Origin: Stenotrophomonas acidaminiphila
GTDB taxonomy: Bacteria > Pseudomonadota > Gammaproteobacteria > Xanthomonadales > Xanthomonadaceae
Direction: 5' to 3'
Length of the DNA: 64,000 nucleotides
NCBI GenBank assembly: GCA_002951995.1
Contig: CP019797.1
Location: forward strand, 2,836,501-2,900,500
Positions 3,224-21,554 of this stretch are shown piece by piece; the stretch's first letter is position 1; each line of letters begins with the position of its first letter. The notes under the pieces are model-generated. The model did no database searches, was not told the origin of the DNA, and saw only the letters and a list, made by a program, of their open reading frames with translations. Both the position numbers and the translations under genes were made by a program.

Positions 3224-3260
3224 CTCTTACGTTCCTCTTACGTCCGTGCTCTATCACGTT
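3224..3260 (+). promoter_or_regulatory. Candidate activator-dependent promoter of the pilus operon with 11-bp-period direct repeats
   Basis: Two adjacent 11-base repeats, CTCTTACGTTC (3224-3234) and CTCTTACGTCC (3235-3245), are followed by a weaker third (GTGCTCTATCA) containing a possible -10, TATCAC at 3252. No good -35 is present. Direct repeats with one-helical-turn period just upstream of a -10 are the known target layout of SARP-type activators, and a SARP/BTAD-like gene lies at the end of this operon. A 7-bp hairpin (3283-3301) lies in the presumed leader. The repeats are seen; the role is inferred. Confidence 0.5.
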
Positions 3261-3336
3261 GCCCCGAAACAACACACGCCTGCCGGTGCCCGCTGCACCG
3301 GTGGGCAGCGCAGGTTTCCATCAAAGGGGCAATCCA

Positions 3337-4161
3337 ATGCAAATGTCTTCCCAGCGCCGCCAGGGCGGCTTCACCCTTGTCGAGATGGCCGTGGTGCTGG
3401 TCATCATCGGCGTGATCATCGGTGCGGTGATGATCGGCCGCGACGTGCAGCGCAACGCCGAGTACACCCGCATCAAGCAGAAGTTCGTCGACCAGTGGGT
3501 GGTCACCTACAACAGCTACCACCAGCGCTACGGCGCGCCGATCGGCGACAACCAGTCCGCCCCGCAGCTGATGGTCAACGGCACCCACTTCACCGGCTTC
3601 TCCGGCGGCGACATGAGCCAGAACGCCACCGAGCCGGCGCTGATCTGCTCCGGCACCGATGCGCTGCCGACCAGCAACGGCCTGACCCGCACCCGCGAGG
3701 GCGACACCGGCTTCGACCTGCGCGACCTGGTGCGCAAGGCCGGCATCACCCTGCCGCCGGGCCGCGGCGAGGGCAAGGAAGACCGCTACGCCTACCTGGA
3801 CACCAACGGCAACCCGCAGGAAATCCGCGTGTGCTTCGGCTGGAACCGGCCCGGCACGCTGTGGGGCTCGGGCAACGCGATGATCATCACCGGGCTGACC
3901 CCGGACCTGGCGCGCGCGCTGGACCAGATGATCGACGGCAAGCCCGACGCCAGCAACGGCGCCTTCCGCCAGGTCGGCATCCAGGCCCGTACCGCCACCG
4001 CCTCCGGCGGCGCGACCTCGGCCAACGCCATCGGCACCGAATGGGGCGGCAACAACACCGGTTCGATGTCCGCGGCCGTCACCGACGGCCAGACCTTCGG
4101 CACCGGCACCGACGACGACCAGGTCATGACCGTCGTCGCCAGCTACAAGATGAACCAGTAA
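3337..4161 (+). CDS. Prepilin-like protein (major-pilin candidate), first gene of pilus operon
   Basis: A 274-residue type IV pilin-like protein. The N-terminus has a short basic leader and a class III prepilin site, cleavage predicted after Gly11 (QGG|FTLVEM) with the conserved Glu at mature position 5, followed by one hydrophobic helix (VVLVIIGVIIGAVMIG). The ATG at 3337 is preceded by AAAGGGG at good spacing; a second ATG six bases on is possible. The body is soluble and Gly/Asn/Thr-rich. It resembles the pilin at 15105: both have GRDV.R.AE..RI after the helix and both end in MNQ. Being first in the operon it may be the most expressed pilin, which is an inference. No prepilin peptidase is encoded nearby, so processing must use one from elsewhere. 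Confidence 0.85.
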   Translation: MQMSSQRRQGGFTLVEMAVVLVIIGVIIGAVMIGRDVQRNAEYTRIKQKFVDQWVVTYNSYHQRYGAPIGDNQSAPQLMVNGTHFTGFSGGDMSQNATEPALICSGTDALPTSNGLTRTREGDTGFDLRDLVRKAGITLPPGRGEGKEDRYAYLDTNGNPQEIRVCFGWNRPGTLWGSGNAMIITGLTPDLARALDQMIDGKPDASNGAFRQVGIQARTATASGGATSANAIGTEWGGNNTGSMSAAVTDGQTFGTGTDDDQVMTVVASYKMNQ

Positions 4162-4165
4162 GCCG

Positions 4166-4705
4166 ATGCGCCGGCCCTCCCTGCTCGCACGCCTGCGCCA
4201 ATCGCGCCGCACCTCGCTGTTGCTGTTCGCCGCCACCCTGGCTTCGCTGGTGGTGGCGGCGGTGTGGTTCATCAAGGAACGCTCGGCCCTGGCCGACGCC
4301 TACCAGCGCCTGGGCGACCGCAACCAGTTGCTGTCCGAGGCCAAGGTGCGCGAGCAGGAGACGCGGCTGCGCGTGGAGCACGCCAATTCCGCGCGCCAGC
4401 TGCTGGCCAGCGCCCAGGCCAACGGGCTGCTGCCCGGCGCCTGGGGCGAACGCCTGATCAACCTGCGCCAGAGCCAGATGCACCGCGAGGAAGCGCTGCC
4501 GCTGCTGGCCACCGTGCAGCGTTCGCCGGACCACCTGTTCGGCGCCGAATCCTTCGAGATCGCCGTCACCCATCCGGACGAGGGGCTGTTCGACCCGCCC
4601 GGCAGCGTCGACCGCCGGCCCGCGCCGCTGTCGGTGACCCTGCGCGGCAGCCTGCTGTTCCAGACCGCCGACGACACCGGCACCCACGGGAATCCCCTGC
4701 CATGA
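4166..4705 (+). CDS. PilO/MshJ/GspM-like inner-membrane pilus assembly protein
   Basis: A 179-residue bitopic membrane protein: basic N-terminus, one transmembrane helix at about residues 18-36, then a helical coiled-coil-like stretch (residues 37-85) and a small beta-rich C-terminal part. This is the usual plan of PilO, MshJ and GspM, which form the periplasmic alignment ring of type IV pilus and type II secretion machines. No sequence motif proves it; the call rests on architecture and position, four bases after the pilin and overlapping the next gene by ATGA. Confidence 0.6.
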   Translation: MRRPSLLARLRQSRRTSLLLFAATLASLVVAAVWFIKERSALADAYQRLGDRNQLLSEAKVREQETRLRVEHANSARQLLASAQANGLLPGAWGERLINLRQSQMHREEALPLLATVQRSPDHLFGAESFEIAVTHPDEGLFDPPGSVDRRPAPLSVTLRGSLLFQTADDTGTHGNPLP

Positions 4706-6102
4706 GCCTGCTCCACGTCATCCAGCAACAGGGCCACTGGCTGCTGTTCGACGGTGCCACCGTGACCCGCAGCGACAGCCGCCCGCGGTTGGCCGGTGCG
4801 GCCGTGGTGGTCAGCGATTTCGAGAATGCGGTCAGCAACGTCATCTCGCTCGAAGGCAGCCCCGCGCACGCGGTCGCGCTGATCGAACGGCGCCTGCGTT
4901 CGGACGGCATGATCGACGGCGAAAGCAAGATCCTGATCCACCGCACGCGCAGCATCGGCGCCGGCTACCAGACCCTGTTCACCGCGGTTCCGCTGGACCT
5001 GTGGCAGCAGACCTACGCCTGGGCGGAGGCGCAGCCGGACCATTGCCTGCTGATCCCGTTCACCTCGCTGCTGTTCAAGTCGCTGCGGCCGGGCCTCGGC
5101 CTGGTGCTGCAGTCCGGCCGCCAGGTCAGCGTGCTGGCGGTGCTCAAGCACGACATGATCTACCGCACCGCGCTGGCCTACAGCGAGGATCCGTCGGACA
5201 TGGCGATGACCGTCGGCGCGCTCGCCGAACAATTCGCCGAGGACCTGGGCAGCGGCGAGGACAGCCTCGAGCCATTGGCCCTGCACTGGTGCCCGGTGCT
5301 GGTGCCGCGCCCGGATGCGGGGCAGCCGTGGAGCGACGATGCGCTGCGCGAGGTGTTTGCCGTGCGCAGCGGCCTGCGGGTGGACAGCGTGCCGCTGCGG
5401 GTGGTGCGTGACGAGCAGGGCAACGAGTACCGCAGCGGCATCGGCTGGATCCAGTCCCAGGCCCGGCCCGGGATCGCCATCAATCCGCTGGCCAGCCGCC
5501 TGGCGTGGAGCGCCGAGTCGCTGTTGCCGGTGGCCAGTGCCGCGTCGCTGGTGTTCGCGCTGATCCTTGCCGCCCTGGGCGCCCGCTGGGCGCTGACCGG
5601 CAGCGAGGCCAGCGCACGCGCCGACGAAGTGGGCAGCGAGATCGAAGCGATCGAGCAGCGGATCGCGGCGATGCAGGCGCAGCAGGCCATGCCCGAAGGC
5701 TTCGCCGGCGTGCAGGCCTTCATCGAACGCGCCACGCGCCTGCAGGACGGCGCCGACCCCAGCGCCAGCCTGGCCCAGGTGCGGGATGCCGCCGCCGGGC
5801 AGGTACGCATCCTGCGGGTGAAGCTGGAAGAGCCGCCAGTCGCACCGCGTAATCCCGGCATGCCCGCCGCACCCACCCCGCTGCCGGGCGACTACACGCT
5901 GCGCGTGGACGGCGTGGCCGACCCGTGGCGCGGTACCCCGGGCATGCAGGTACCGGCCTTCGTCGAGGGCCTGCGCCGGGCCGGCTTCGATCCACAGCCG
6001 GTCGATCCGCAGGGCGGTGGCATGAACACCCGTTCGGCCGGCGGCTTCTTCTCCTATCTGCTCAAGCGCCCGCCGGCTGCGGCGGCAGAGGTCCGTCCAT
6101 GA
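4702..6102 (+). CDS. MshI/GspL-like inner-membrane assembly protein (PilM-PilN type)
   Basis: A 466-residue protein with a soluble N-terminal part of about 270 residues, one transmembrane helix at 275-297, a coiled coil at about 300-335 and a periplasmic C-terminal domain. This matches MshI/GspL, in which a cytoplasmic actin-like domain recruits the assembly ATPase and the periplasmic part joins the PilO-like partner. The actin-like fold is not obvious from motifs, so the N-terminal assignment is by layout. The start ATG overlaps the stop of the preceding gene (ATGA) and its stop overlaps the next start in the same way, which indicates translational coupling. Confidence 0.65.
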   Translation: MSLLHVIQQQGHWLLFDGATVTRSDSRPRLAGAAVVVSDFENAVSNVISLEGSPAHAVALIERRLRSDGMIDGESKILIHRTRSIGAGYQTLFTAVPLDLWQQTYAWAEAQPDHCLLIPFTSLLFKSLRPGLGLVLQSGRQVSVLAVLKHDMIYRTALAYSEDPSDMAMTVGALAEQFAEDLGSGEDSLEPLALHWCPVLVPRPDAGQPWSDDALREVFAVRSGLRVDSVPLRVVRDEQGNEYRSGIGWIQSQARPGIAINPLASRLAWSAESLLPVASAASLVFALILAALGARWALTGSEASARADEVGSEIEAIEQRIAAMQAQQAMPEGFAGVQAFIERATRLQDGADPSASLAQVRDAAAGQVRILRVKLEEPPVAPRNPGMPAAPTPLPGDYTLRVDGVADPWRGTPGMQVPAFVEGLRRAGFDPQPVDPQGGGMNTRSAGGFFSYLLKRPPAAAAEVRP

Positions 6103-6616
6103 AGATCAAGTTCATCGCCGCCATCGCGCTCGTGGTGTGGCTGGCGGTCACCGGCTGGCTGGCGACGATGGTCGTGGTCAAGCCCGCGGTGCTGCAACTG
6201 GGCAACGACGCCGACGAAACCGCCGCCATGGTGGAGCTGCGCAGCGCCATCGCCCACAACCAGAAGATGCAGGCGCAGGTCGAACGGCTGCGCCGCAGCG
6301 TACCCATCGGAGATGGCCAGCCGCTGCTGGCGTTGCCGCTGGCCACCCCGCCCGCCAGCGAAGGCAGCCCGTCGTCCGCCCTCGCTGGCGGCGCGGAAAC
6401 CCAGGCCGCGCACAGCGTCTCGCTGGTGCTGGTGGCCAATGGCCGGCACAGCGCGGTGGTCGACGGGCAGCGCGTACAGCGCGGCTCGCGCCTGGCCAGC
6501 GGTGCGCGCGTGGATGCCATTGGCCCGGACTGGGTACGCATCCGCAACGCGGCCGGCGAACTGGCCACGCTGCCGGTGCCCTCGCCGTACACCCACGCCG
6601 CGGGGAACAGCGATGA
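6099..6616 (+). CDS. MshK/PilP-like pilus protein, 3' end apparently frameshifted
   Basis: The N-terminus is a membrane anchor (residues about 4-28), followed by a helical region and, from about residue 105, a small domain (VSLVLVANGRHSAVVDGQRV... then WVRIRN) typical of the PilP/MshK/GspC homology region that docks to the secretin. As written, the frame has no stop at the expected place and runs on to 7316 through the whole next gene in a different frame, which cannot be real. Adding one G to the G-run at 6602-6605 gives the ending THAAGEQR and a TGA at 6614-6616 that overlaps the next ATG exactly as elsewhere in this operon. I therefore give 6616 as the end; about 172 residues. Either a sequence error or a true frameshift. 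Confidence 0.65.
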
Positions 6617-7215
6617 ACCCGCGCTACAGGAAGCCCCTGCTGTGGGGCACCGGCCTGATCGCCGGCGGTGCCCTGGCGATCCTGGCGGTGCGGCATTCCG
6701 GCGATGCGGCCGCGCCCGCCGCCCCGCCGGCGGCCGCGGCGCAGGCCCAAGCCGCCGCCGAACCGCAGGCCACGCCCGCGGGTGCGGACACGCCACCATG
6801 GCTGCAGGCCGACGCCTCGGCCGGCGGCAGCGCCATGCAGCGCGCGGCGGCCGCGACGTCGCCCCCGGTAGCGGCCACGGCAACGGACATCGGCCGCTCG
6901 CTGGCCGACATCCGCCTGAAGTCCGGCAACAACATGCGCATGGCCGACGACCTGCTGGCCCAGCTCGACCAGCTCGAGAAATCCGGCAAGGCGCCTGCCG
7001 ACGTACGCCTGGACGCACTGCGCAACAACCTGCTGATCGCCAAGCGCGCGCAGGCGCTGGCGGTGGAACTGGCCGAGTCCACGCAGAAGCCGGACAGCCC
7101 GGCACAGCGCCAGCGCAACGCCGCCATCCTGGCCGAACTGCAGCAGTTGCAGGGCCAGCTGCGCTACGACGTGGCACCGGCCAACCTGCCCGCGGCACCG
7201 GGCCGGGCGCAGTGA
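6613..7215 (+). CDS. Pilus-operon membrane protein of unknown function
   Basis: A 200-residue protein I do not recognise. It has one transmembrane helix near the N-terminus (about residues 8-25), an Ala/Pro-rich linker (residues 30-85), then a helical, charged C-terminal region (about 95-190) with heptad-like spacing (LADIRLKSGNNMRMADDLLAQL and following). This layout would span the periplasm or hold a helical bundle there. Its position between the MshK-like gene and a pilin gene, with coupling on the 5' side and only one base to the next gene, marks it as a subunit of the same machine. Confidence 0.7.
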   Translation: MNPRYRKPLLWGTGLIAGGALAILAVRHSGDAAAPAAPPAAAAQAQAAAEPQATPAGADTPPWLQADASAGGSAMQRAAAATSPPVAATATDIGRSLADIRLKSGNNMRMADDLLAQLDQLEKSGKAPADVRLDALRNNLLIAKRAQALAVELAESTQKPDSPAQRQRNAAILAELQQLQGQLRYDVAPANLPAAPGRAQ

Positions 7216-7216
7216 C

Positions 7217-8005
7217 ATGCGGCCACGCCACCGCCCGGCACGGCTCGGCCCCGGCACCCGCAGCGGCTTTTCGCTGGTGGAGCTGGCCGTGGTCATCGGC
7301 GTGCTCGGGCTGCTGACCATGACCGCGCTGTCCGCCTTCGACAACCTCGGCCAGGCACGCCGCCACAATGCCGCCCGCGCCCATGCCGAGAATGCACGGC
7401 AGGCGCTGCATGCGTTCGCGCTGCGCAACAAGCGCCTGCCGTGCCCCGACCTGTCGGGCACCGGCGACAGTGGCTTCGAGGGCAGCAACGGCGCCTGCAG
7501 CACCACCGGCAACGTCGGCTGGCTGCCCTATGCCAGCCTCGGCCTGGAGCTGCCGGTACGCGGCGAGCGCCTGCGCTACGGCGTGTACCGCGGCACCGCC
7601 AACACCGACCTGGTCGCCCCGGCGCGCGAATCGGCCGACCAGCCGGACCTGGAGTACATCGGCGGCTTCGGTTCGGCGCTGTCGCGCATCGTCGCCACCA
7701 CCACCACCGCGCCGCAGGCCAGCCAGCCGCACTACATCAGTGGCGGCACCCCCACGCAGTGCGGCGGCGGTGGCACCGGCACGCGCATGGTCAACCCCGC
7801 GTTCGTGCTGGTGGCCCCGGTCGGCTCGCGCGACGGCGGCGGCGGCGACGGCGGCTTCGATGGCGCCAACAACCGCGCCTTCGCCCAGGGCAACGGTACC
7901 TGCGTCACCCCGCCCGATTACCCCGGCGACGAGCGCTACGACGATCTCGTCGTCGCCGAAAGCGCCACCGCCCTGCTCGGCTGGCTGATGGCCACCACGC
8001 GCTGA
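7217..8005 (+). CDS. Prepilin-like protein (minor pilin) with LPCP motif
   Basis: A 262-residue minor pilin candidate. Prepilin cleavage is predicted after Gly17 (RSG|FSLVEL), Glu at mature +5, followed by a hydrophobic helix. After the helix it has RLPCPDL, then a Gly/Asn-rich stretch, WLPYASLGL and RLRYGVYRG. This LPCP...LP..SLGL...Y.VYR pattern recurs in the pilin-like proteins at 15854 and 20214, showing that these minor pilins are related. The distal part has Gly-rich turns and Cys residues that may form disulfides. It starts one base after the previous stop. Confidence 0.82.
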   Translation: MRPRHRPARLGPGTRSGFSLVELAVVIGVLGLLTMTALSAFDNLGQARRHNAARAHAENARQALHAFALRNKRLPCPDLSGTGDSGFEGSNGACSTTGNVGWLPYASLGLELPVRGERLRYGVYRGTANTDLVAPARESADQPDLEYIGGFGSALSRIVATTTTAPQASQPHYISGGTPTQCGGGGTGTRMVNPAFVLVAPVGSRDGGGGDGGFDGANNRAFAQGNGTCVTPPDYPGDERYDDLVVAESATALLGWLMATTR

Positions 8006-8059
8006 CCGCCGATGCCCTTCCTTCTGCCTTCCACCGCATCCTTCCAAGGTACAGAACCG

Positions 8060-9814
8060 ATGAATCCCAACGCCCGCACCGCCCGCGTCCCACACCGCCC
8101 CACGGTCAGAACGCTCGTCAGCGCGATCGGCGCGTTGACCCTGGCCGCCTGCAGCAACATGCCGCCGCGCAGCGTGCAGGAACTTCCGCCGACCGAGTAC
8201 AAGGCGCTGGAGCGCAGCGGCACGGCCATCGTCGAGGAATCGAAGAAGCTGGCCGCCCAGCAGGACCGCATGCGCGAACAGGTCGAGCAGCGCATGCAGC
8301 AGCAGGCCGAGGCCGCCGCGCCGGTGGCGCCGGCCTACGACCCGCTGGAGAACACCGTGGTCAGCATCAGCATGTTCAACGCCGACGTCGGCCAGCTGCT
8401 GTGGGCGCTGGCCGACGAGCTGAAGATGAACCTGATCGTCGACCCGCAGGTGCTGGAACAGCGCCAGCGCACCAGCCTGCACCTGCGCAACGTCAGCGCG
8501 CGCGAGGTCTACAACCACATCCTGGGCGCGTTCGACCTGCACGGCGAGATCCGCGGCGGCGCGCTGGTGGTCGGGCAGGTGCGCGAACGCATCTTCAACG
8601 TGGACCTGCTGAACGCCAGCACGTCCTTCGACCTGTCCACCGGCGGCGACGTGTTCGGCGCCGGCATCCAGAGCGCCGGCGGCGGCGGCCAGTCGCTGCG
8701 TGGCACGCTCACCATGAGCGGCAGCGTCGGCAAGGACAGCGACCCCTACAAGCAGCTGGATTCCGCGCTCAAGGTGATCCTGGGCAGTGACGAGCAGGCC
8801 GCCACCGCGCGTGGCCCGGACGCGCCGCCGGCGCCGGAGAAGAGCCGTTACAGCCTGGACCCCAGCTCCGGCACCCTGTACGTGCGCGCCCGTCCGTCGC
8901 AGATCCGCGCGGTGGAGGAACTGGTCGGCCACACCACGGCCAAGATGCGCCGCCAGGTGCTGGTGGAAGCGCAGATCCTGGACGTCTCGCTCAACGACAA
9001 CTTCCAGTACGGCGTGGACTGGAACCTGCTGCGCAACCGCGTGGCCGGCATCTACGGCGACAGCCCGGCCACCATCGCGCCGCTGCCCGGCACCCCCGCC
9101 AACCCCGACCTCGGCATCCCCGAAAATCCCAACCTGCTGCCCTACCAGCGCTATGGCCGCTATGGCGACCAGGCGCGCAACATCATCTTCCCCAACCAGA
9201 CGCTGGGCTCGGTGGCCGGGCGCGGGCTGGGCATCAGCTACCTGACCGACACGTTCTCGGCCGCACTCAACGCGCTGCGCACCTTCGGCAACGTCAAGGT
9301 GCTGTCCAACCCCAGCGTACGCGTGCGCAACGGCAGCCCGGCCTACCTGAGCGTGGGCTCCAACATCCGCTACGTCACCAAGTCCACCAGCAACTTCTCC
9401 AATACCGGCGGTGGCACCGCGTACAACCAGTCCACCGACATCCAGACCGATTCGCTGTTCTCCGGGGTGGTGATCGGCGTGGCGCCGATCGTGCACGACA
9501 ACGGCGGCGTCGAACTGCTGGTGCACCCGATGCAGACCGAGGTGGTGCCCGGCAGCCTGGAGCTGCAGAAGTTCCCCAACGGCAATGCGGTCACCCTGCC
9601 GGTGGTCAACGTCAAGGGCATCACCACCACGCTCAACCTGCGCGATGGCGACACCGTGCTGCTCGGCGGGCTGATCGACCAGAAGGCCAACCTCAACGAC
9701 AGCGGCATCCCCGGCCTGTCCGACGTACCGGCGTTCGGCAAGCTGTTCGGGTCGCGCGCCAAGCAACAGAGCACCCGCGAACTGGTGCTGGTGCTGCGGG
9801 TGAAGGTGATATGA
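8060..9814 (+). CDS. Pilus secretin, outer-membrane lipoprotein (MshL/PilQ/GspD family)
   Basis: Forms the outer-membrane channel through which the pilus passes. I start at the ATG at 8060, which gives a lipoprotein signal peptide ending LTLAAC (lipidated Cys31) and 584 residues; an ATG 48 bases upstream would add a non-signal extension. N0/N1-like periplasmic domains occupy about residues 90-290. The secretin domain follows with its usual marks: VLVEAQILDVSLND, VKVLSNPSVRVRNG, a region around VVIGVAPIVHDNGG, and LRDGDTVLLGGLID near the C-terminus. A Gly-rich loop lies in the N-domains. The stop overlaps the next ATG. Confidence 0.9.
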   Translation: MNPNARTARVPHRPTVRTLVSAIGALTLAACSNMPPRSVQELPPTEYKALERSGTAIVEESKKLAAQQDRMREQVEQRMQQQAEAAAPVAPAYDPLENTVVSISMFNADVGQLLWALADELKMNLIVDPQVLEQRQRTSLHLRNVSAREVYNHILGAFDLHGEIRGGALVVGQVRERIFNVDLLNASTSFDLSTGGDVFGAGIQSAGGGGQSLRGTLTMSGSVGKDSDPYKQLDSALKVILGSDEQAATARGPDAPPAPEKSRYSLDPSSGTLYVRARPSQIRAVEELVGHTTAKMRRQVLVEAQILDVSLNDNFQYGVDWNLLRNRVAGIYGDSPATIAPLPGTPANPDLGIPENPNLLPYQRYGRYGDQARNIIFPNQTLGSVAGRGLGISYLTDTFSAALNALRTFGNVKVLSNPSVRVRNGSPAYLSVGSNIRYVTKSTSNFSNTGGGTAYNQSTDIQTDSLFSGVVIGVAPIVHDNGGVELLVHPMQTEVVPGSLELQKFPNGNAVTLPVVNVKGITTTLNLRDGDTVLLGGLIDQKANLNDSGIPGLSDVPAFGKLFGSRAKQQSTRELVLVLRVKVI

Positions 9815-10710
9815 GCCTGATCCACGACGCGCTGCGGGAACACGACGCGCCGGCGCTGCCGGTGCGGCCGGCGCCGCGCGCGTCCTGGTGGGCACGGCGG
9901 GCGCCGTCCACCCGCGGCCCCCTGCTGTTCGCGGCAGCCGGCCTGGGCGGCTTCGTGCTGGCCGGCGCGGTGCTGTTGGGCCTGGGCGCGCGCGGCACCG
10001 CCGCGCCGTCGGCGGTCGCCGGCAGCGGCGCCGCCCCGCCCACCACGGCGACGACCCTCGCCACAGTGCCCGCGGCGCCGGCCGTGGCCCCCGCGCCCGC
10101 CCCGGCGCCGACGGCCAGCGCCGCGAGCGTGGCGGTACAACCACCGGAATCCACGCCGGCGGTCGTTCCCGCGCCGCAGCCGGCGTCCGACACGCCCGCA
10201 AGCAACACGCCGGGCGTCGCCACGCCGGCCCCGGCCCGGTCGGCGCCGCTGCCGGCGACCGCCGCCAACGACAGCGCCGCGCCTGCGATCCACATCGAGG
10301 TCGAACGCCGCAGCGGCGCCGCCCCGGCCGATGCCGGCGGTGACGGCCGCGCGGTGGAACAGGCCGTGGCCGATGTCGAGCGCGCGATGGCCGGCGGCGA
10401 CCTGGACAACGCCCGCCAGGCACTGGCGCGGCTGGATGGCCTGCTCTCGCCGGAGAGCCTGACCCTGCTGCGCATGCAGGCCTGGGTCGCGCATGCCGGC
10501 AACGACACCGACCAGGCCGAAGCGTTGTACCGCCGGATCGCCGAGCGCGTTCCCGAAGACGTGAACGCCGGGGTCAACATCGCCCTGCTCGACGCCCGCC
10601 GCGGCGACGCCGACGCCGCCCGCGCGCGGCTGGCACGGCTGTCCGGCCGCCATCCGCGCTCGCCGCAGGTGGCCCGCGCGCTGGCCGAACTGGACCGCGG
10701 CGCGCCATGA
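9811..10710 (+). CDS. MshN-like TPR membrane protein
   Basis: A 299-residue protein beginning MSLIHDALRE, like the start of MshN/GspB-type proteins. One transmembrane helix at about 37-60 is followed by a long Ala/Pro/Thr-rich linker (60-165) that could cross the periplasm, then TPR-like helical repeats from about 195 to the end (AVADVERAMAGGDLDNARQAL, EALYRRIAERVPEDVNAGVN). In MSHA-type loci this gene sits between the secretin and the ExeA-type ATPase, as here. It probably helps place or stabilise the secretin; the linker composition is unremarkable for such proteins. Confidence 0.75.
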   Translation: MSLIHDALREHDAPALPVRPAPRASWWARRAPSTRGPLLFAAAGLGGFVLAGAVLLGLGARGTAAPSAVAGSGAAPPTTATTLATVPAAPAVAPAPAPAPTASAASVAVQPPESTPAVVPAPQPASDTPASNTPGVATPAPARSAPLPATAANDSAAPAIHIEVERRSGAAPADAGGDGRAVEQAVADVERAMAGGDLDNARQALARLDGLLSPESLTLLRMQAWVAHAGNDTDQAEALYRRIAERVPEDVNAGVNIALLDARRGDADAARARLARLSGRHPRSPQVARALAELDRGAP

Positions 10711-12149: not shown

Positions 12150-12182
12150 TCCCACCCCCGCCCGCCCGCGATCCCGTCCGCC

Positions 12183-13841: not shown

Positions 13842-15094
13842 ACGTCTACTACTACCGCCTGCTGCTCTCCAGCGGCCGCGTGCGCGCCGGCGTCACCCAG
13901 TTGTCGGTCGAACACGATTCGTCGGCGCGGATGTGGCTGGAAAAGAACTTCGACGCGGTCGTGCTCACCCTGTACCGCTTCCCCGGTTGGCTGGCCGAAG
14001 CGCAGCGCACCATCACCCAGCTGGTCAAGCCGAGCATCCGCTCGGTGGAGCTGGCCGGGATGCTGCGCGACCTGGCGGTGATGACCTCCAGCGGCATCCC
14101 GATCATGGAATCGCTGCGTGCGGTGGCCAACGAGGTCGGCGGTGGCCGCACCTCCAACGCCGCCCGGCTGGCGCGCCGGCTGCTGGACGAACTGGATGCC
14201 GGCGCCTCGCTCAGCGACGCGGTGTCGCGTTACCCGGACGCGTTCCCGGAGACCGTGCGCAACCTGCTGATGATCGGCGACGAAACCGGCACCATGGACA
14301 AGATGCTGATGGAGTCGGCCGACCACATCGAACGCATCTCCAAGATGACCGCCGACACCCGCCAGGCGCTGATCTACCCGGCGTTCGTGTTCTCGGCGAT
14401 CTTCGCCGCCGGCGGCTTCTGGATCTACTACGTCATCCCCAACCTGGCCGACCTGTTCAAGCAGATGAACGCCAAACTGCCGCCGCTGACCATCGCGGTG
14501 ATGAAGGGCTCGGAATGGCTGATCGGCCACATCGGCTTCATCGCCGTGGCCATGGTGGTGTCCGCGTTCGTGCTGTGGGTGGCCTGGCGCTACAGCCGCG
14601 GCTTCCGCCGCGCCGCGCACTACACCCTGCACAAGCTGCCCATCGCCAGGACCATCATGTACTCCTCGGGGCTGGCGTTCTTCACCGAGTACATGGCGCT
14701 GCTGATCCGCGCCGGCGTGGACATGGTCAGCAGCCTGCAGGTGATGGAACGGGCGATGCGCGACGAGTACTACCGCGACCGCATCATCGCCATCCGCCAG
14801 GTACTGGAGCGCGGCGACCGGGTGTCCGCGGCGATGCGCCAGGTCGGCGGCTTCCCCTCGATGATGGTGCGCATGATCGGCGTCGGCGAGGAGACCGGCA
14901 CCCTGGATTCGCAGTTCGCGCGCCTGTCGGCCGAGTACAGCCTGCGCCTGCAGCGGCTGATCACCAATCTGTCCGAAGTCATCAAGCCGGTGGTGGTGCT
15001 GCTGGCCGGCGGCATGTTCGTGTTCCTGATCGTCGCCCTGCTGCTGCCCGTCTACGACCTGGTCAAGCAGGCCATCGCTTCCCCGCAGTTCTGA
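13838..15094 (+). CDS. GspF/PilC/MshG-type inner-membrane platform protein
   Basis: A 418-residue polytopic protein that forms the platform on which the assembly ATPase acts. Two T2SSF domains (about 60-190 and 270-395) each contain the family's GxP..(E/D)SL-type start (GIPIMESLRAV; GVDMVSSLQVM) and the GDETGTMD / GEETGTLD signature. Three membrane helices are visible (about 180-205, 230-250, 385-410). The first 50 residues are a short cytoplasmic lead. The ATG overlaps the stop of the ATPase gene (ATGA). Length is normal for the family. Confidence 0.92.
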   Translation: MNVYYYRLLLSSGRVRAGVTQLSVEHDSSARMWLEKNFDAVVLTLYRFPGWLAEAQRTITQLVKPSIRSVELAGMLRDLAVMTSSGIPIMESLRAVANEVGGGRTSNAARLARRLLDELDAGASLSDAVSRYPDAFPETVRNLLMIGDETGTMDKMLMESADHIERISKMTADTRQALIYPAFVFSAIFAAGGFWIYYVIPNLADLFKQMNAKLPPLTIAVMKGSEWLIGHIGFIAVAMVVSAFVLWVAWRYSRGFRRAAHYTLHKLPIARTIMYSSGLAFFTEYMALLIRAGVDMVSSLQVMERAMRDEYYRDRIIAIRQVLERGDRVSAAMRQVGGFPSMMVRMIGVGEETGTLDSQFARLSAEYSLRLQRLITNLSEVIKPVVVLLAGGMFVFLIVALLLPVYDLVKQAIASPQF

Positions 15095-15104
15095 GGATCC
15101 CGTC

Positions 15105-15857
15105 ATGCAGCGTGCTTCCCGCCCCCTTCCGTCGGCCGCCGGCTTCACCCTGATGGAGATGTCGGTGGTGCTGGTGATCATCGCGCTAATCATCGGCGCG
15201 GTCAGCGTCGGCCGCGACGTCTACCGCAGCGCCGAGGCCGAACGCATCGGCAGCGAGTTCGTGCAGGGCTGGATCGTGGCCTACGACCGCTACGTGCAAC
15301 AGAGCGGCGTGGTCCCCGGCGATACCCCGGCCAACCCCAGCGGCCGCATCAACGGCCAGCTCGACCGCAACGGCCGCGAGCTGTGCGACGACCCGGGCAA
15401 CTTCGCCCTGCGCAAGGCCATGCTCGAACGCGGCGTCGCGCTGCCGCAGGGGCGCGCCGAGGGCATGGAGTCGTTCTACGTCTACCGCGACAGCCAGGGC
15501 AACCCGCAGCAGCTGCAGGTGTGCTTCGACACCGTCGTCGACTGGGCCGAACCCACACCCACCGGCGGCTACCAGCCGCGGGTGCGCAACATCATGGTGC
15601 TCAAGGGCCTGACCCCGGAGCTGGCCAACCAGCTCGACGCGCGCATCGACGGCCGCATCGACGCCTGTTTCGGCCGCCTGCGCGAGCAGGCGCCGATTCC
15701 CAAGTACAGCGGCGGCAGCAGCCTGTGCAATGTCGCCGTCGGCAGCAGCAGCGCATCGCAGCCGCGGCCATGGACCGAGGACGACACCCAGACCCGCAAC
15801 GGCCGCGAGGACGGCCTGGTCAAGGTGATGACCGGCTACCTGCGGATGAACCAGTGA
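15105..15857 (+). CDS. Prepilin-like protein, paralogue of the first pilin
   Basis: A 250-residue pilin-like protein. Cleavage is predicted after Gly13 (AAG|FTLMEM), with Glu at +5, then a hydrophobic helix. It resembles the protein at 3337: VVLVII.LIIGAV..GRDVYR, a similar central region (LPQGRAEGMESFYVYRDSQGNPQQ against the first pilin's LPPGRGEGKEDRYAYLDTNG), GLTPELA/GLTPDLA and an identical MNQ end. It starts ten bases after the GspF-like gene. Two closely related pilins at separate places in one operon suggest duplication, one perhaps being the main subunit and the other a priming subunit; that split is inference. Confidence 0.85.
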   Translation: MQRASRPLPSAAGFTLMEMSVVLVIIALIIGAVSVGRDVYRSAEAERIGSEFVQGWIVAYDRYVQQSGVVPGDTPANPSGRINGQLDRNGRELCDDPGNFALRKAMLERGVALPQGRAEGMESFYVYRDSQGNPQQLQVCFDTVVDWAEPTPTGGYQPRVRNIMVLKGLTPELANQLDARIDGRIDACFGRLREQAPIPKYSGGSSLCNVAVGSSSASQPRPWTEDDTQTRNGREDGLVKVMTGYLRMNQ

Positions 15858-18800
15858 CCCCGTTTCCGCTTTCCCCAACGGCCATTCAGGACACCCGTCA
15901 TGAACCAGCCCACACGTCTTCCACCCGCGGCCGCGACCCCGCGCAATCCGGCTTCGGCCTGCTCCAGGTGATGCTGATCCTGCTGCTGGTCGGCAGCGCG
16001 CTGGCCGCCGGCGCGGTGCTGTGGCAATCCAAGCGCGCGCCGGCGCAGGCCGTGGCCCAGGAGCAGGCGCTGCGCTGGGCGGACGAGGCGATCGCCGCCT
16101 TCGCCGCCGCGCACGCGCGCCTGCCGTGCCCGGCCGACATCGCCAACGGCGAGGAGAACTGCGCCTCGGGCAACGCCAAGGGCTGGCTGCCCGCGCGCAC
16201 CCTGCTCGGCGCCTCCGGCGACGGCATGCGTTTCGGTCCGGTGGCCTACATGGTCTATCGCGGCGACGCCGCCACCCACCTGGACCTCACCGCGCCGGGC
16301 AATACCTACCAGCCGCCCCTCACCGACGGCAGCGTGCGCGAGATCATCATCCGTGACGAGGACGGCGAAAAGACCGGCCGTCGCGGCTTCGTCGCCGTCA
16401 ACGGACTGGACCTGTGCCGCACGCTGGAGCTGGCGCAGGTGCAGCCGCACGATCCGCTGCGCGCCGGCAGCGCCGGCCTGCCCTGGAATGTGGCCTACGG
16501 CATCGCCGCCGCCGGCCCGCAGTCCGGGGCATCGCGCCTGGATGACGCCAACGCCGCCGGTGGCGCGCAGATGGCCGCCCCCTGGCAGGAATGGAGTGGC
16601 GGCTACGACGACCGCGTGCGCGTGCGCACCTTCGACGGCGCCGGGCAGATGCTCGGCTGCCGGCTGCTCGGCGGCGCCACGCCGGCACCGCTGGCGCGCG
16701 CCTACGCCACGCCGCTGGGCCTGCCCGGCGCGGCGGCCGCCACCGCCACGCCCTACAACGTGTCGCTGGCCGGCATGGACGTGCTGGCCGCCGCGGTGAC
16801 CCTGCACGATACGCTGGGCGAGCTGCAGGCCAGCAACATCGACGCGACCGAATCGGCCGTGCAGGGCGCGGTCCAGGCGCAGATCTCGGTGATCTTCAAG
16901 CTGGTGGCCACCGCCATCAGCCTGTCCGACAACATCACCACGCTGGTGACCTCCTCGGTATCCCTGGTGCGCGCCATCGTCACCTGCATCGCGTCGCTGG
17001 GCACCACCTGCGCCGAAGTGCCGATCAAGACCTCGGCGGTGGTCACCGCGGTGGTCGGCCTGGGTACCAAGGGCGTGACCCTGGCGGCCAAGGCCGCCTC
17101 GCTGCCGCTGGTCAGCGCGGCACTGGCGGCCACGATCAAGGCGCGCGACCTGGCGCGCAAATCGGCCATTCCGCCGGTCAGCAACCCCGAAGAAGCCCGC
17201 CGGCAACTGGAATGCACGCTGTGGGCGCGCAACTGCGGCGACGACGAGGGCGTGGTCAAGACCGAGCTCAACCCGGACTGGAGCGAGGGCGACGACCCCA
17301 AGGACAAGTACCGCATCGTTTACCGGCGCGACGCCAACGGCAACCCGATCCCGCGGCTCGATGCCGACGGCAAGCCGATGTACGACAGCAGCGGCAACCC
17401 GCTGTACGAGCCGGAGTACGAGGCCGGCGCGCCGCGCAAGGGGCTGGAGCAGGAGACCGAAGAGGCCAAAACGAACTGGCAGACCCTGCAGGTGCAGGTC
17501 GATGCCCTGGAAACCTGGCGGCTGGCGCCGTGGGGCGTCGCCGTGGCCGGCAATGGCGACCTGAGCGAGAACGGCCGCATCGTCGAGCGCATCGACGTGG
17601 AGGCCACGCGCCAGCGGATCTGCGACGGCAACTGGAAGGACTGCCGCTACGGCAAGGCCCAGGTCCGGGTGGAGTGCCGTTATGTCGGGGCCAACGCCGG
17701 GCAGTACGTGCTCAATGGCGGCACGTGCACCCATGTCGGCACCGAGAACATCACCGAACCGGACCCGAACGACGCCACCCAGACCATCACCGTCACCCGC
17801 CCCAAGGGCGACCGCGACCGGGTGGAGATCACCGACTACGTCTACAACCAGGACCAGGCGGTGGCCGACGCCATCGCCCTGCGCACCCTGGCCCAGGACT
17901 GGTCCAGCCTGCGCATGCGCAAGGAGGAGCTGGACCGGGAAATCACGCTGCGCGAGGACAACTTCAACAGCTGGTTCAGCGGCGGCGATTCGATCCTGTC
18001 GAAGATGAAGGCGCAGCGCGACGACAGCCAGCATTGCGGCGCCAGCCCGCAGACCGCCATGACCCGGCAGAAGTGCGACAACGCCAACCTCACGGTCCTG
18101 TACATCGAGACCTGCCAGAAGCCCGAGCCGGTGCGCGAGTGCAAGGCGGTCAGCCCCGGCACCGGCCGTTACCGCGACGCGGCGTGCACCGACCGCAACG
18201 GCAGTGATGCCGAAAAGAACTACGGCTGGGTCGAGACCCTGTCGCCGCCGCCCTATCCGCGCGACCCCACGCCGGACGCGGTCTGCAAGCCCAACATGCA
18301 GGACCGGATCAACGAGCTCAAGGCCGAACAGGCCGGGCTGCAGCAGGGCATGGACAACGCCCGCAACGCCTACAACGGGCGCATCAACCGCAAGGAAGCA
18401 CCGTGGCTGACGTACCCCACCGGCGCCGGCTACAACTGGTTCCAGTGGGCCATCGAGATCACCCGCGACAAGGACGACAACCCGGTCAGCTATGCCTGGA
18501 AGCAGTCGCCGATCGTGGAGACGTATACGTATTCCTGCAAGAAGTCGGAGAACCAACCCATCTGGGTGCCCGGCGATCCCAACACTACCCCACCAACCGC
18601 CGGCTACTGGAAGGACAACTGGGTGGAAGTGGACAGCACCTGCACCGCCAACCGGCGGCTGCCGTTCTACGCGCCCGAACCCTACGGCGGCGGCCGCCCG
18701 CCGCTGCTGATCACCAGTCCGGCGAACACGCCGCTGTTCGGGACGCTGCAGCTGTACGAACTGCTCCCGGAGAACGCCTGCGCGTACTTCAACAGCCGCC

Positions 18801-19120
18801 AGTGGAACGGCAGCCAGTGGTGGTGGCCCGGCGGCATCACCTGGGGCGACACCTACAAGGTGGGCCTGTACTGCCAGCGCTACCCCTACAGCCGCGCGTT
18901 CGAGGACTGGAAGCGCGCCAAGCTCGGCGCCAGCAACGCCAAGAAGCACTACGAAGACCTCTACGCCCAATACGAGAAGCTGAAGCAGGAGTACGAGGAC
19001 ATGCGCAGCGGCAGCGTCAGCGGCGGCGACGAGATCCCGATGGCGTTCGGCGCCGAACCGGCGCTGGAATGGGCCGACTCGCGCGGCTCGGCCGGCCCGC
19101 AGCCGCTGGTGCAGCCATGA
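15854..19120 (+). CDS. Giant prepilin-like protein (about 1,090 residues), non-canonical N-terminus
   Basis: This pilin-like protein is four to eight times the usual size. After a leader, the cleavage site is QSG|FGLLQVML with Gln, not Glu, at mature +5, then a hydrophobic helix. The shared minor-pilin motif follows (RLPCPAD at 89-95, GWLPARTLLG, VYRG). Residues about 305-440 are a long apolar, Ala/Val/Thr-rich helical region. The rest is hydrophilic and Cys/Trp-rich with a charged coiled coil near the C-terminus (about 1014-1055). The GTG at 15854 overlaps the previous stop. An ATG at 15900 with AGGA upstream is out of frame unless one C is added at 15937-15940; that would give a shorter, more usual leader. 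A large minor pilin or tip adhesin is likely. Confidence 0.8.
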   Translation: MTPFPLSPTAIQDTRHEPAHTSSTRGRDPAQSGFGLLQVMLILLLVGSALAAGAVLWQSKRAPAQAVAQEQALRWADEAIAAFAAAHARLPCPADIANGEENCASGNAKGWLPARTLLGASGDGMRFGPVAYMVYRGDAATHLDLTAPGNTYQPPLTDGSVREIIIRDEDGEKTGRRGFVAVNGLDLCRTLELAQVQPHDPLRAGSAGLPWNVAYGIAAAGPQSGASRLDDANAAGGAQMAAPWQEWSGGYDDRVRVRTFDGAGQMLGCRLLGGATPAPLARAYATPLGLPGAAAATATPYNVSLAGMDVLAAAVTLHDTLGELQASNIDATESAVQGAVQAQISVIFKLVATAISLSDNITTLVTSSVSLVRAIVTCIASLGTTCAEVPIKTSAVVTAVVGLGTKGVTLAAKAASLPLVSAALAATIKARDLARKSAIPPVSNPEEARRQLECTLWARNCGDDEGVVKTELNPDWSEGDDPKDKYRIVYRRDANGNPIPRLDADGKPMYDSSGNPLYEPEYEAGAPRKGLEQETEEAKTNWQTLQVQVDALETWRLAPWGVAVAGNGDLSENGRIVERIDVEATRQRICDGNWKDCRYGKAQVRVECRYVGANAGQYVLNGGTCTHVGTENITEPDPNDATQTITVTRPKGDRDRVEITDYVYNQDQAVADAIALRTLAQDWSSLRMRKEELDREITLREDNFNSWFSGGDSILSKMKAQRDDSQHCGASPQTAMTRQKCDNANLTVLYIETCQKPEPVRECKAVSPGTGRYRDAACTDRNGSDAEKNYGWVETLSPPPYPRDPTPDAVCKPNMQDRINELKAEQAGLQQGMDNARNAYNGRINRKEAPWLTYPTGAGYNWFQWAIEITRDKDDNPVSYAWKQSPIVETYTYSCKKSENQPIWVPGDPNTTPPTAGYWKDNWVEVDSTCTANRRLPFYAPEPYGGGRPPLLITSPANTPLFGTLQLYELLPENACAYFNSRQWNGSQWWWPGGITWGDTYKVGLYCQRYPYSRAFEDWKRAKLGASNAKKHYEDLYAQYEKLKQEYEDMRSGSVSGGDEIPMAFGAEPALEWADSRGSAGPQPLVQP

Positions 19121-20217
19121 GCCGCGCCCCGCACCGCCTGGCCCGCGCCGGCTTCACCCTGGTTGAACTGGCCGTGGCGCTGGCCATCGCCGCGCTGCTG
19201 ACGGTCCTGCTGGTCAGCCTGTTGCCGCTCGGCAACAGGGTGCTCGACGCCGAGCGCCAGCGGCAGGAACTGGCGCAGGCCGAACAGGCACTGCTGGGCT
19301 ACATGCGCAGCACCGGCCACCTGCCCTCGGCCGACGGCGACGGCAACGGCCGCGCCACCGGTGCCGCCGTGGGCTGGCTGCCGGTGGCCGAGCTGGGGCT
19401 GCCCGCCCGCATGCGCATCCACTACCAGGTGCAACCGCGGCTGGCGGTGGCGCCGGGCAACGCGTTCGATCCGCTGCTGCCGCCCACCGATCCGCTGGCG
19501 GTCACCGGCAACAGCAACGGCCTGGACCTGTGCATGCAGCTGCTGCTGGAACAGCGCAGCGACATACCAATGGCCGGGCTGGGCATGCCGGTGGCCTATT
19601 ACCTGGGCCATTCCGGACTGGCCGGGCACGGCCGCGCCGATGCCGATGCGCAGTGGAAGCCGGCGGCGCAGGCCATGCCCGGCACCCCCACCGACAGCGA
19701 CCTGGCCACGGTCGCCGCCGGCCCTGGCGAACTCGCCAGCCGCCTGTCCTGCACCGATCGCCTGGCCCGTGCCCAGGGCAGCGCGCAGGCCGCGCAATCG
19801 GCCTGGAGCTCGCTGGAACTGACCCGCTTCAACTTCGAGTTCCGCAAGTTCGACATCCACATCGCCGAAACCACCCGCGACCAGGCCGCCGTCAGCCTGG
19901 CGCTGGCGGTCTATGCCATGGCCGAGTCGATCACCAACGAGGCCATCGCCCTCACCCTGCTGGCCTCGGGCTGGCCGCCGGACGGGCTGACCATCGCCGC
20001 CGGCGCCAAGCTGCTGGCCAAGTCGGTGGTGTCCATGGGCTTGGCGGCCAAGAGCCTGGCCAGCGCGGCCATCGCCCTGAAGGACGCCCAGGATGCGGTC
20101 GAGGACGCCAGGACCCGGCGCGACCAGGTCAGGAACTTCATGGACCGGATCGACACGCTCTACCAGGACGCCCGCGACACCGCCCTCACCCTGGATCGCG
20201 CAGGACTGAACCCATGA
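19117..20217 (+). CDS. Prepilin-like protein with helical apolar C-terminal domain
   Basis: A 366-residue minor pilin candidate. Cleavage predicted after Gly12 (RAG|FTLVEL), Glu at +5, then a long hydrophobic helix. It keeps a weaker copy of the shared motif (HLPSADGDG, GWLPVAELGL). The second half, from about residue 237 to the end, is predicted helical and contains long apolar stretches (AAVSLALAVYAMAESI, LLAKSVVSMGLAAKSLASAA) followed by a charged helix (EDARTRRDQVRNFMDRID). This part has no Gly/Pro breaks for long spans and looks like a helical bundle. Starts overlap with the stop of the giant pilin gene (ATGA). Confidence 0.8.
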   Translation: MSRAPHRLARAGFTLVELAVALAIAALLTVLLVSLLPLGNRVLDAERQRQELAQAEQALLGYMRSTGHLPSADGDGNGRATGAAVGWLPVAELGLPARMRIHYQVQPRLAVAPGNAFDPLLPPTDPLAVTGNSNGLDLCMQLLLEQRSDIPMAGLGMPVAYYLGHSGLAGHGRADADAQWKPAAQAMPGTPTDSDLATVAAGPGELASRLSCTDRLARAQGSAQAAQSAWSSLELTRFNFEFRKFDIHIAETTRDQAAVSLALAVYAMAESITNEAIALTLLASGWPPDGLTIAAGAKLLAKSVVSMGLAAKSLASAAIALKDAQDAVEDARTRRDQVRNFMDRIDTLYQDARDTALTLDRAGLNP

Positions 20218-21554
20218 CGCCCACTGCCACCTCCTCCCCCGCCCGCGCGCGCCAGCGCGGCTTCTCGCTGATCGAACTGACCGTGGCCCTGGTCATCCTC
20301 GGCATCATCGGCATCCTGCTCACGCGCTGGCTGAGCGACACCGCGCACGAGCGCAGCCAGGTCGCGCAGCGCGACCTGCTGCAGCGCGCCGACGACGCGG
20401 TGCTGGGCTATGCCACCATCCACGCGCGCCTGCCCTGCCCGGCCAGCCCGCTCAGCGACGGCCGCGAGGACTGCGCCCAGGGCGAGGTCGGCACCCTCCC
20501 CTGGCGCACGCTGAGCCTGCCCGACAGCCGCGCCGGCAACATCCGCTACGGCGTCCTGCGCCGCACCGGCGACAGCGCGCCGTTGGCCGGCTGGAGCACC
20601 GCCGCCCAGCGCGTGGCCGACGTGGATACCGCGTTGCCGGCCGACCTGGCGCAGGTGGCGGACCAGGCGGTGCCGCTGCAGGTGACCATCAACGCGCCGC
20701 GGTTCGTGCCCTTCAGCAAGATCCAGCCCTGGGACAACTGCAGCGTGGTCGATTGCGCCAACCTGTCGCACAGCGGACTGAACAGCCTGAACAGCATGGA
20801 TTTCTGCAATGCCCTGCGCAACGCGGCGATGCTGCCGGCCAGCGCGGAGCACGTGCACACCCGGCGCGAGCTGGAGCCGGCGCAGGTCGCCGGCAACGTC
20901 GCCTACGCGCTGGCGGTGGTCGATCCGCTCGCGCCCGCGCACGACGCCACCTCACCGGTGTTCCAGTCGCCGCGCCGCCCCGGCGGCGGCCCCGACAACT
21001 ACCAGGACAAGGTGCTGGCGGTGGGCATCGACCAGCTGTGGAGCCGCCTGCGCTGCGGCGAGCACTACGCCCCGGCGCTGTACGCGCACGCCAACGTGGC
21101 CATGGCCGCGCGCCTGACCACACCGGCCATGGCCAACCACGAGGTGCAGCTGGACATCATGGTCGAGCTGGGCGTGGCCGAAGCCCTGAACGCCTCGGTG
21201 GCACTCATCGACGCCACCGCCGACCTGATCAACACCACCTCCGAGACCCTGGACACCATCGCCGAGATGTTCGAGACCTATGGCGGCTGGAACTGGCGCG
21301 TGGCGGTCGCCGGCGGCAGCATCGGCACCGCCGTCGGCAGCACCATCGCCGCCGGCGCGGCGCTGGCCGCGGCAGGCACCTACGCCGCCACGTCGCGGCA
21401 ATACCGCGACCAGTTTGCCGCCCGCTTCCCCGACGAGGCACGGCGCCTGGAAATCGAGATCGTCAGCAATGCGCGCCGCGCCGACATGCTCGGCGGCTTC
21501 CCCGACGACACCGTGCGCACCGCGGCGAAGAACCTGCAGTACACCGGGCCCTGA
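20214..21554 (+). CDS. Prepilin-like protein with LPCP motif and helical C-terminal domain, last gene of pilus operon
   Basis: A 446-residue minor pilin candidate. Cleavage predicted after Gly16 (QRG|FSLIEL), Glu at +5. The shared motif is clear: ARLPCPASPLSDGREDC, then GTLPWRTLSL and IRYGVLRR. The middle has several Cys that may pair. From about residue 312 the chain is again helical and apolar (VAEALNASVALIDATADLI; a Gly/Ala-rich segment near 370-395 of membrane-helix hydrophobicity), then an amphipathic Arg/Glu-rich helix. It overlaps the previous gene by four bases and is followed by a GC-rich hairpin, so it closes the operon. Confidence 0.82.
   Translation: MTPTATSSPARARQRGFSLIELTVALVILGIIGILLTRWLSDTAHERSQVAQRDLLQRADDAVLGYATIHARLPCPASPLSDGREDCAQGEVGTLPWRTLSLPDSRAGNIRYGVLRRTGDSAPLAGWSTAAQRVADVDTALPADLAQVADQAVPLQVTINAPRFVPFSKIQPWDNCSVVDCANLSHSGLNSLNSMDFCNALRNAAMLPASAEHVHTRRELEPAQVAGNVAYALAVVDPLAPAHDATSPVFQSPRRPGGGPDNYQDKVLAVGIDQLWSRLRCGEHYAPALYAHANVAMAARLTTPAMANHEVQLDIMVELGVAEALNASVALIDATADLINTTSETLDTIAEMFETYGGWNWRVAVAGGSIGTAVGSTIAAGAALAAAGTYAATSRQYRDQFAARFPDEARRLEIEIVSNARRADMLGGFPDDTVRTAAKNLQYTGP

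Follow-up and report, generated by a model that had tools for sequence, protein, structure and literature searches.

A deep, apparently undescribed variant of the MSH filament systems with giant prepilins in Stenotrophomonas acidaminiphila

We analyzed a 64,000-nucleotide stretch of the 3.66-Mb, single-contig genome of Stenotrophomonas acidaminiphila (positions 2836501-2900500 of contig CP019797.1; hereafter, the window), in which an operon of 15 genes, denoted g01 to g15, very likely encodes a distinct filament of the MSH type, that is, a relative of the mannose-sensitive hemagglutinin (MSHA) pilus. On balance, the operon appears to encode a complete type IV filament from a deep side branch of the MSH superclade, with the products of g13, g14 and g15 forming a tip that would show a large head. 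Sequence comparison establishes the components of the machine, their separate clade, the conservation of the pilin set and the descent of the large pilins as paralogues. Because the MSH secretin and core are shared, the system is not categorically new; it is apparently an undescribed, deep and consistent MSH variant with its own pilin set, and it is more widespread than a reading of the single window could show.

The 15 genes are co-directional on the plus strand and span positions 3337-21554, as delineated from codon-position GC and homology. At eight of the 14 gene junctions, the neighbors overlap by 4 nt (ATGA or GTGA), and the widest gap is 54 nt, which bears out the layout given in a preliminary description of this DNA, made from the sequence alone; the start was put there at 3224, but the operon most likely begins, instead, with the ATG at 3337. 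As the gene order recurs in distant genomes with a GC content of 38-71%, the operon is not a chance arrangement. The platform protein is 99.5-100% identical to its counterpart in S. acidaminiphila JCM 13310, and the silent-site divergence of the operon from that strain (dS) is 0.11-0.24. The core of the assembly machine is encoded by five consecutive genes (MshI, MshJ, MshK, MshN and MshQ are used throughout as names presumed from gene position):

g07, 8060..9814, plus strand: MshL-type secretin with a lipobox (TIGR02519, 288.1 bits vs a cut-off of 250.2)
g08, 9811..10710, plus strand: MshN-like tetratricopeptide repeat (TPR) protein (TPR_19)
g09, 10707..12149, plus strand: ExeA/MshM-type AAA ATPase with a peptidoglycan-binding domain (PF13401, PF01471)
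g10, 12183..13841, plus strand: extension ATPase of the MshE/GspE type with an MshEN domain (PF00437, 333 bits; PF05157, 26.6 bits vs 23.1)
g11, 13838..15094, plus strand: platform protein of the GspF/MshG type (PF00482, 141.6 bits)

The core of the assembly machine claimed previously is recognized here, from the MshL-type secretin to the platform protein. In the MSH model, as given in the pertinent part of a survey of type IV filaments, mshA, mshE, mshG, mshL and mshM are mandatory (PMC6668835). The secretin of the operon is recognized by the MshL model TIGR02519, and a hidden Markov model (HMM) of the g09 family matches the open reading frame (ORF) in the MshM position in all 12 MSHA-type loci (189-254 bits). 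The g08 family HMM matches the ORFs in the MshN position in 9 of these 12 loci, with a best score of 48 bits and, in two, an E-value of only 0.002-0.005. A lipobox-like pattern is present in 54 of the 62 members of the g07 family, the Walker A and CxxC-CxxC motifs are intact in all 72 full-length relatives of g10, and g10 itself scores above the NF053729 cut-off (52.5 vs 38 bits). In contrast, the scores fall below the cut-offs of the GspD, GspE and GspF models of the type II secretion system (T2SS; 146 vs 351, 382 vs 630 and 207 vs 424 bits), the PilQ and PilB models of type IVa pili (T4aP; 100 vs 284 and 382 vs 676 bits) and the model of the PilN-type secretin of type IVb pili (TIGR02520; 79.7 vs 287.7 bits). 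The gene order had been described as that of MSHA loci; the core is indeed of the same kind, but its order is L-N-M-E-G as opposed to L-M-N-E-G in the MSHA-type loci. MshE of Vibrio cholerae has been reported to bind cyclic di-GMP via its N-terminal domain (PMC4624765), and similar control of g10 is possible. The reported lack of a prepilin peptidase and PilT in the locus holds and fits the known MSH loci. The sole Peptidase_A24 match of the genome is located at 2,686,884, some 150 kb away from the operon; three shorter matches to T2SSE, at 566,936, 983,228 and 984,424, were taken for candidate PilT/PilU. PilT is shared with the MSHA system in V. cholerae, according to the relevant passage of PMC9815625.

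Of the 162 genomes that have an MshL match, 18, mostly top-scoring ones, contributed genomic regions for reading, and the loci were labeled, from gene order and TIGR02519, as MSHA-type (A) or as a second MSHA-like type (B); the relatives of the operon form group C, and the T2SS and T4aP sets come from a class-level sample. The concatenated alignment of secretin, ATPase and platform protein comprised 65 rows and 1,467 columns, with one protein absent from each of four rows: 34 rows of C (31 of 80 loci, the window and two further genomes), 12 of A, two of B, eight of T2SS and nine of T4aP. The trees are quick searches with support values from the Shimodaira-Hasegawa-like approximate likelihood ratio test. 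In the tree of the concatenate, a branch with a support of 100 sets off each of the five groups, with stems of 1.3 (C), 0.93 (A), 1.15 (B), 0.89 (T2SS) and 1.11 (T4aP) substitutions per site. Group C is also a clade with a support of 100 in each single-protein tree (39 of 83 rows for the ATPase, 36 of 82 for the secretin and 36 of 74 for the platform protein). A, B and C jointly are split from T2SS and T4aP with a support of 100 in the concatenate, and from the T2SS and PilQ secretins with a support of 99 in the secretin tree; the ATPase tree in which C, A and B are held together is slightly better than the free tree (p 0.561 in the approximately unbiased (AU) test). The placement of the core proteins relative to the T2SS and MSHA clades had been named as the decisive check, and C falls outside both the T2SS and the sampled MSHA-type clades in all three single trees and in the concatenate. 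Thus, the distinctness proposed for this MSHA-like appendage stands with respect to the sampled MSHA-type clade; however, because A, B and C share one side of a fully supported branch and a clade of C with A is not rejected, C is a deep sister branch rather than an unrelated system. It is best called a putative third deep branch of the MSH superclade, with the order of A, B and C left open. Type B forms its own pair, with a support of 100 in the concatenate. Loci of this type (order M-L-E-G; pilins of 201-294 amino acids (aa) that resemble g06 and g01) occur alongside an MSHA-type locus in several genomes with two MshL matches, such as those denoted L187 (G357) and L190 (G432), where L and G numbers refer to loci and genomes, respectively.

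The six predicted prepilins of 250 to 1,088 residues that were noticed previously are all confirmed:

g01, 3337..4161, plus strand: prepilin, candidate major pilin (274 aa; glutamate at mature residue 5 (Glu5); N_methyl domain PF07963, 33.2 bits)
g06, 7217..8005, plus strand: prepilin with the pilin module only (262 aa; PF07963, 17.7 bits, below the cut-off of 21.2)
g12, 15105..15857, plus strand: prepilin, paralogue of g01 (250 aa; PF07963, 22.6 bits)
g13, 15854..19120, plus strand: giant prepilin with Gln as mature residue 5 (1,088 aa)
g14, 19117..20217, plus strand: prepilin with the pilin module and an Ala-rich tail (366 aa; PF07963, 23.5 bits)
g15, 20214..21554, plus strand: prepilin with the pilin module and an Ala-rich tail (446 aa; PF07963, 30.6 bits)

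These proteins are of two kinds. The paralogues g01 and g12 are 37% identical (profile match, E 2e-69); the match of g01 to the solved MshA is weak and limited to the N-terminal helix (12.9 bits, E 0.87). The other four share a second module, about 220-250 residues long and containing an RLPCP-type motif, and in hhalign comparisons, the g06 family matches g15, g14 and g13 with E-values of 3.5e-56, 1.5e-40 and 3.6e-33, respectively; g01 and g12 align with this group over 25-66 columns, that is, the N-terminal helix, except for g12 with g06 (119 columns). Judging by the alignments, g13, g14 and g15 are paralogues: 367 columns match between g14 and g15, tail included, 360 between g15 and g13, and 279 between g14 and g13. 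All three carry an Ala-rich region beyond the pilin module, which in g13 extends to about residue 440. The tails of g14 and g15 are rich in Ala (23-24% vs 14-16%) and poor in Pro (1.3-1.5% vs ~8%), which suggests helices. Viral fusion proteins gave a weak profile match with the g15 tail, which was dismissed as a chance effect of Ala-rich heptads. In the window, g13 continues for about 650 residues past the shared part; the internal repeats of the protein are limited to two short families, and it has no Pfam match and a weak N-terminal match of the GspH type (20.4 bits vs a cut-off of 80). The pilins of the MSHA-type loci read are about 120-380 aa long, so that g13 (1,088 aa) and g15 (446 aa) are outside the MSH size range. 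Database names of g13 relatives include 'hypothetical protein', 'type IV pilus modification PilV family protein' and 'Type IV secretion protein Rhs'; the last, attached in UniRef to at least two relatives, is probably a misnomer for which short D-x-x-G-N stretches are the suspected source.

Several features suggest that g13, g14 and g15 probably form the tip of the pilus. Glu5 is conserved in g01 (28 of 28), g06 (56 of 58), g12 (64 of 64), g14 (45 of 45) and g15 (79 of 81) but is found in only 22 of 65 g13 proteins, and g13 of the window has Gln at this position. According to the part of a review that covers tip complexes, these are capped by a subunit that lacks Glu5 (PMC10191384). For modular pilins, exposure at the tip is considered likely, and their extra modules commonly bind ligands, as stated in the corresponding passages of PMC8179133. 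In comparison with S. nitritireducens (L065), g13 is the fastest-evolving of g09-g15 (53% protein identity, dN/dS 0.57), as expected for an exposed head, and g10 is 97% identical with a dN/dS of 0.07. Compared with L062, a near relative, g10-g15 have dN/dS values of 0.02-0.22 and are under purifying selection (g01 was left out of this analysis because, in partial loci, its rows matched g12). The elaborate tip complex put forward in the preliminary description is therefore plausible, given the paralogy of g13-g15 and the lack of Glu5 in g13, but the tip role itself is read from sequence features.

The following scheme of assembly is proposed. The chromosomal PilD would cut the prepilins, and g10, acting on the platform g11, would polymerize a shaft of g01 and, perhaps, g12. 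The g06 protein might be the joint between the shaft and the tip. The tip itself, which would also prime assembly, would consist of g13, g14 and g15, and the lack of Glu5 would place g13 at its apex. Export would proceed through the lipoprotein secretin g07, aided by g08 and the cell-wall-binding g09, and the shared PilT/PilU would retract the filament. The extra region of g13 would be displayed as a head, in place of PilY1 or MshQ; its role as an adhesin can be suggested only tentatively. The BTAD protein encoded next to the operon may regulate it.

A number of observations weigh against this scheme, and it has to be compared with other interpretations. A clade uniting C with A is compatible with the AU test (p 0.386 for the ATPase and 0.496 for the concatenate). 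The strict MshEN pattern is found in 33 of 81 g10-group ATPases, some of which are fragments, with both copies in seven; at least one strict pattern is present in all nine MSHA-type ATPases, and in g10 of the window, two copies are readable but end in N and M, respectively. The putative tip mark is not universal either: 22 of 65 loci retain Glu5 in g13, and when L063 is left out, a second count finds Glu in 3 of 19 Xanthomonadaceae and in 19 of the 49 remaining sequences (L062 and L063 were mis-registered by the motif finder, and both have Gln when read by eye). Finally, no known domain, including any adhesin domain, was recognized in the extra region of g13. One alternative is that the operon encodes an ordinary MSHA pilus with enlarged minor pilins, with nothing separate about it. 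This interpretation could draw on the MshL-type secretin, the counterparts of MshM, MshN and MshK, the joint branch of A, B and C, and the AU results for C with A, but we consider it unlikely: the MSHA-type rows form their own clade without C in all trees, the stem of C is longer than those of MSHA-type, T2SS and T4aP, and the pilin set and gene order differ, with no match to the presumed MshI group. At the opposite extreme, it is improbable that the operon represents a separate class of type IV filaments that ranks with MSHA, T2SS and T4aP, in which a hetero-trimer of paralogous giant pilins replaced the non-pilin tips of the PilY1/MshQ type and the helical tails serve as a stalk or as a membrane-active head to dock onto or attack other cells.

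Secretin, ATPase, platform and minor-pilin logic are all shared with T2SS, and g13, without Glu5, is GspK-like, so one could think, instead of a surface pilus, of a pseudopilus machine that expels a substrate. Such a function also seems improbable, considering the scores far below the GspD, GspE and GspF cut-offs and the presence of a T2SS-like locus elsewhere in the genome, near 0.57-0.58 Mb (GspD 315 of 351 bits; GspE 538 of 630 bits in a cut piece); no substrate gene was noticed in the flanks, which were not searched systematically. We are still more skeptical of a contact-killing role, in which the tip trio would attack or dock into the envelope of another cell with membrane-active, Ala-rich hydrophobic tails. 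Minor-pilin tips of the Kil systems are required for prey killing by Myxococcus, as described in the part of PMC12075869 on these tips, and a second hydrophobic stretch (KD19 of at least 1.3) is common in g13 (62 of 63), g14 (39 of 45) and g15 (77 of 80) but rarer in g01 (1 of 28), g06 (24 of 57) and g12 (5 of 63). However, shuffled tails often reach the same peak (median fraction 0.14-0.28), and there are only 33 of 188 rows in which 5 or fewer of 100 shuffles do so. The peak thus results mostly from the Ala-rich composition, and the tails would also fit a coiled-coil stalk (the weak PDB matches of g14 include a designed helical dimer, E 0.0019). It is very unlikely that the operon is a non-working relic in the course of being lost, even though only a minority of the congeneric genomes have it, the site has decayed in G663, other genomes retain scars with BTAD alone, and the usual stop codon is missing from the g04 frame: all 14 remaining frames are open, Walker A is intact, and the low dN/dS values relative to L062 speak against decay.

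Compared with known systems, the variant shares with MSHA a single locus that lacks a prepilin peptidase and encodes the MshL-type secretin, the MshM/ExeA ATPase, the MshN-like TPR protein, an MshK-like protein, the MshEN-bearing extension ATPase and the platform protein. It differs in its own clade, its L-N-M-E-G order, prepilins of up to 1,088 aa, a pilin gene at the operon start and another before the secretin; MshQ was not seen in the operon, although no MshQ model was applied. As in the T2SS tip GspI-GspJ-GspK, where GspK lacks Glu5, three minor-pilin genes are adjacent and the largest product lacks Glu5, but g13-g15 are mutual paralogues with shared tails, and the core proteins stay below the cut-offs of the T2SS models. 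The combination of a pilin module with an extra display module resembles modular pilins such as PilB and PilC of Streptococcus sanguinis and CofB of enterotoxigenic Escherichia coli, whereas g13 exceeds the 860-residue many-domain example given in the same source, three related proteins are encoded in one operon, and the extra part has no known domain (PMC8179133). The Kil tips of Myxococcus likewise have a minor-pilin trio with extra domains, one of them large (PMC12075869), but the Kil machinery is Tad and was compared by description only. We found no description of the system in the open-access literature searched; in the portion of PMC10806987 on pilus genes of the S. maltophilia complex, mshC and mshE are listed with the system not specified. 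The pertinent section of a 2023 review omits MSHA from its comparison as too poorly characterized (PMC10191384), and the 2019 filament survey, in its account of MSH, had one validated system to use (PMC6668835). A third deep branch in cultured Stenotrophomonas, Acidovorax and Hydrogenophaga widens this picture. The tip candidates are unusually recognizable, as three paralogues, one of which mostly lacks Glu5 and has a large extra head, and a single operon makes two open questions testable, namely, priming of assembly by tip pilins and the display of a large head without PilY1.

A scan of genome contigs gave 84 relatives of g11, of which the best 80 were kept; these include 46 from Betaproteobacteria, 28 from Gammaproteobacteria, five from Desulfobacteria, Myxococcia and Magnetococcia, and one unassigned. 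The operon, including a pilin of 398-1,131 residues, recurs in Xanthomonadaceae, Burkholderiales, Zoogloeaceae and Marichromatium, and the carriers include cultured strains of the three genera named above. Sixty-six loci extend for 6 kb or more past g11; 57 of these encode at least four prepilins downstream, and the largest downstream pilin has a median length of 752 aa (398-1,131) and at least 600 aa in 53 loci. In the remaining loci, three prepilins were called (L075, L119, L141), the set is broken (L128), a single 921-aa pilin is present (L133), only a short piece is available (L117), or the core alone was seen (L134, L136 and L140, from Desulfobacterota and Magnetococcales). Most often, the genes follow the order g11-g13-g14-g15-g12, whereas g12 comes first in 14 loci. 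The system is rare: a C-type g11 was detected in 4 of 369 genomes of the class sample (>400 bits; next best 239), where MshL scores above the cut-off in 139; a g07 match at E 1e-60 is found in 8 of 250 genomes of the order, and the operon in 11 of 91 genomes of the genus. Some loci are rearranged. In L131, L135, L138, L139 and L284, the extension ATPase gene is relocated behind the pilin genes at the operon end, and g11 of L100 (G016:C175, S. pictorum) is split over two frames. L032 (G037; 13412-16185) has g01-, g15/g13- and g12-like prepilins with no core gene in the 32 kb read. Genes that, by eye, resemble those for ECF sigma factors and Ser/Thr kinases adjoin the pilin genes, in G091 (L057) on the g01 side and in G037 (L032) on the g12 side.

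The four small genes between g01 and g06 are less readily identified:

g02, 4166..4705, plus strand: position of PilO/MshJ (179 aa; function unassigned)
g03, 4702..6102, plus strand: C-terminal part weakly PilN-like (466 aa)
g04, 6099..6611 (homologous part), plus strand: MshK-like; frame open to 7316
g05, 6613..7215, plus strand: system-specific protein (200 aa)

The MshK-like protein noted previously is recovered as g04, with an hhalign probability of 96 to the MshK-position group and family HMM matches in 7 of the 12 MSHA-type loci. The PilO/MshJ-like and MshI-like labels fared worse and are weak at best. The best hhalign match of g02 is to an upstream group of the MSHA-type loci (probability 52), and the search of 17 g02 family members against Pfam gave only scattered weak matches; g03 reaches a probability of 76 to a 200-aa upstream group of these loci, and its top PDB match, PilN, is non-significant (E 0.26). 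Neither g02 nor g03 has an informative Pfam match, and hhalign detected no protein in the operon that matches the 300-aa upstream group of MSHA-type loci taken for MshI. The g05 gene recurs in relatives, and no convincing family match was found for its product. The frame of g04 does not terminate at the g05 start and remains open to 7316, 703 nt inside g05; g05 was also found in 12 of 14 relatives, and in these 12, g04 ends between -30 and +9 nt from the extrapolated g05 start. Either a sequencing error or a strain-specific change could account for the open frame.

Beyond the end of the operon lies a gene on the opposite strand:

BTAD regulator-like gene, 21813..22673, minus strand (PF03704, 49.1 bits; Trans_reg_C, 14.8 bits, below the cut-off of 26.2)

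The sub-threshold winged-helix match precedes the BTAD domain, and the natural reading of this protein is as a putative regulator. A BTAD homologue is present in all 11 carrier and in 7 of 80 non-carrier congeners (owing to the relatedness of the genomes, these are not independent counts), and in 17 of 20 Xanthomonadaceae loci, the misses being L067, L070 and L100, which is a short contig. In all five non-carrier congeners read, the GGT gene is about 0.7-0.9 kb from ilvC, with no BTAD match in the 12-13 kb read. Four of the seven non-carriers with BTAD were read (G663/L289, G004/L288, G027/L290 and G007/L292), and in three, BTAD lies beside ilvC without the operon; G663 retains the GGT gene, a lone g01-type pilin, BTAD and ilvC. 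We infer that the operon occupied this site ancestrally and has been lost several times, with BTAD and g01 the last to go. In L291, a carrier has a second BTAD copy away from ilvC.

Other readings of the region were discarded. The window contains no Rfam match at gathering scores, and riboswitch control was rejected on this ground, as was a sigma-70 promoter ahead of g01, with none found in 3000-3400. A PADLOC search with six proteins gave only weak P-loop matches of g09, which removes a defense system from consideration, and a mobile element was rejected as g11 has no plasmid match (E 1e-60) and g15 has no plasmid (E 1e-3) or phage match. Elsewhere in the window, the GC fraction drops to 0.49 at 34001-36000, compared with 0.64-0.71 in the adjoining stretches.

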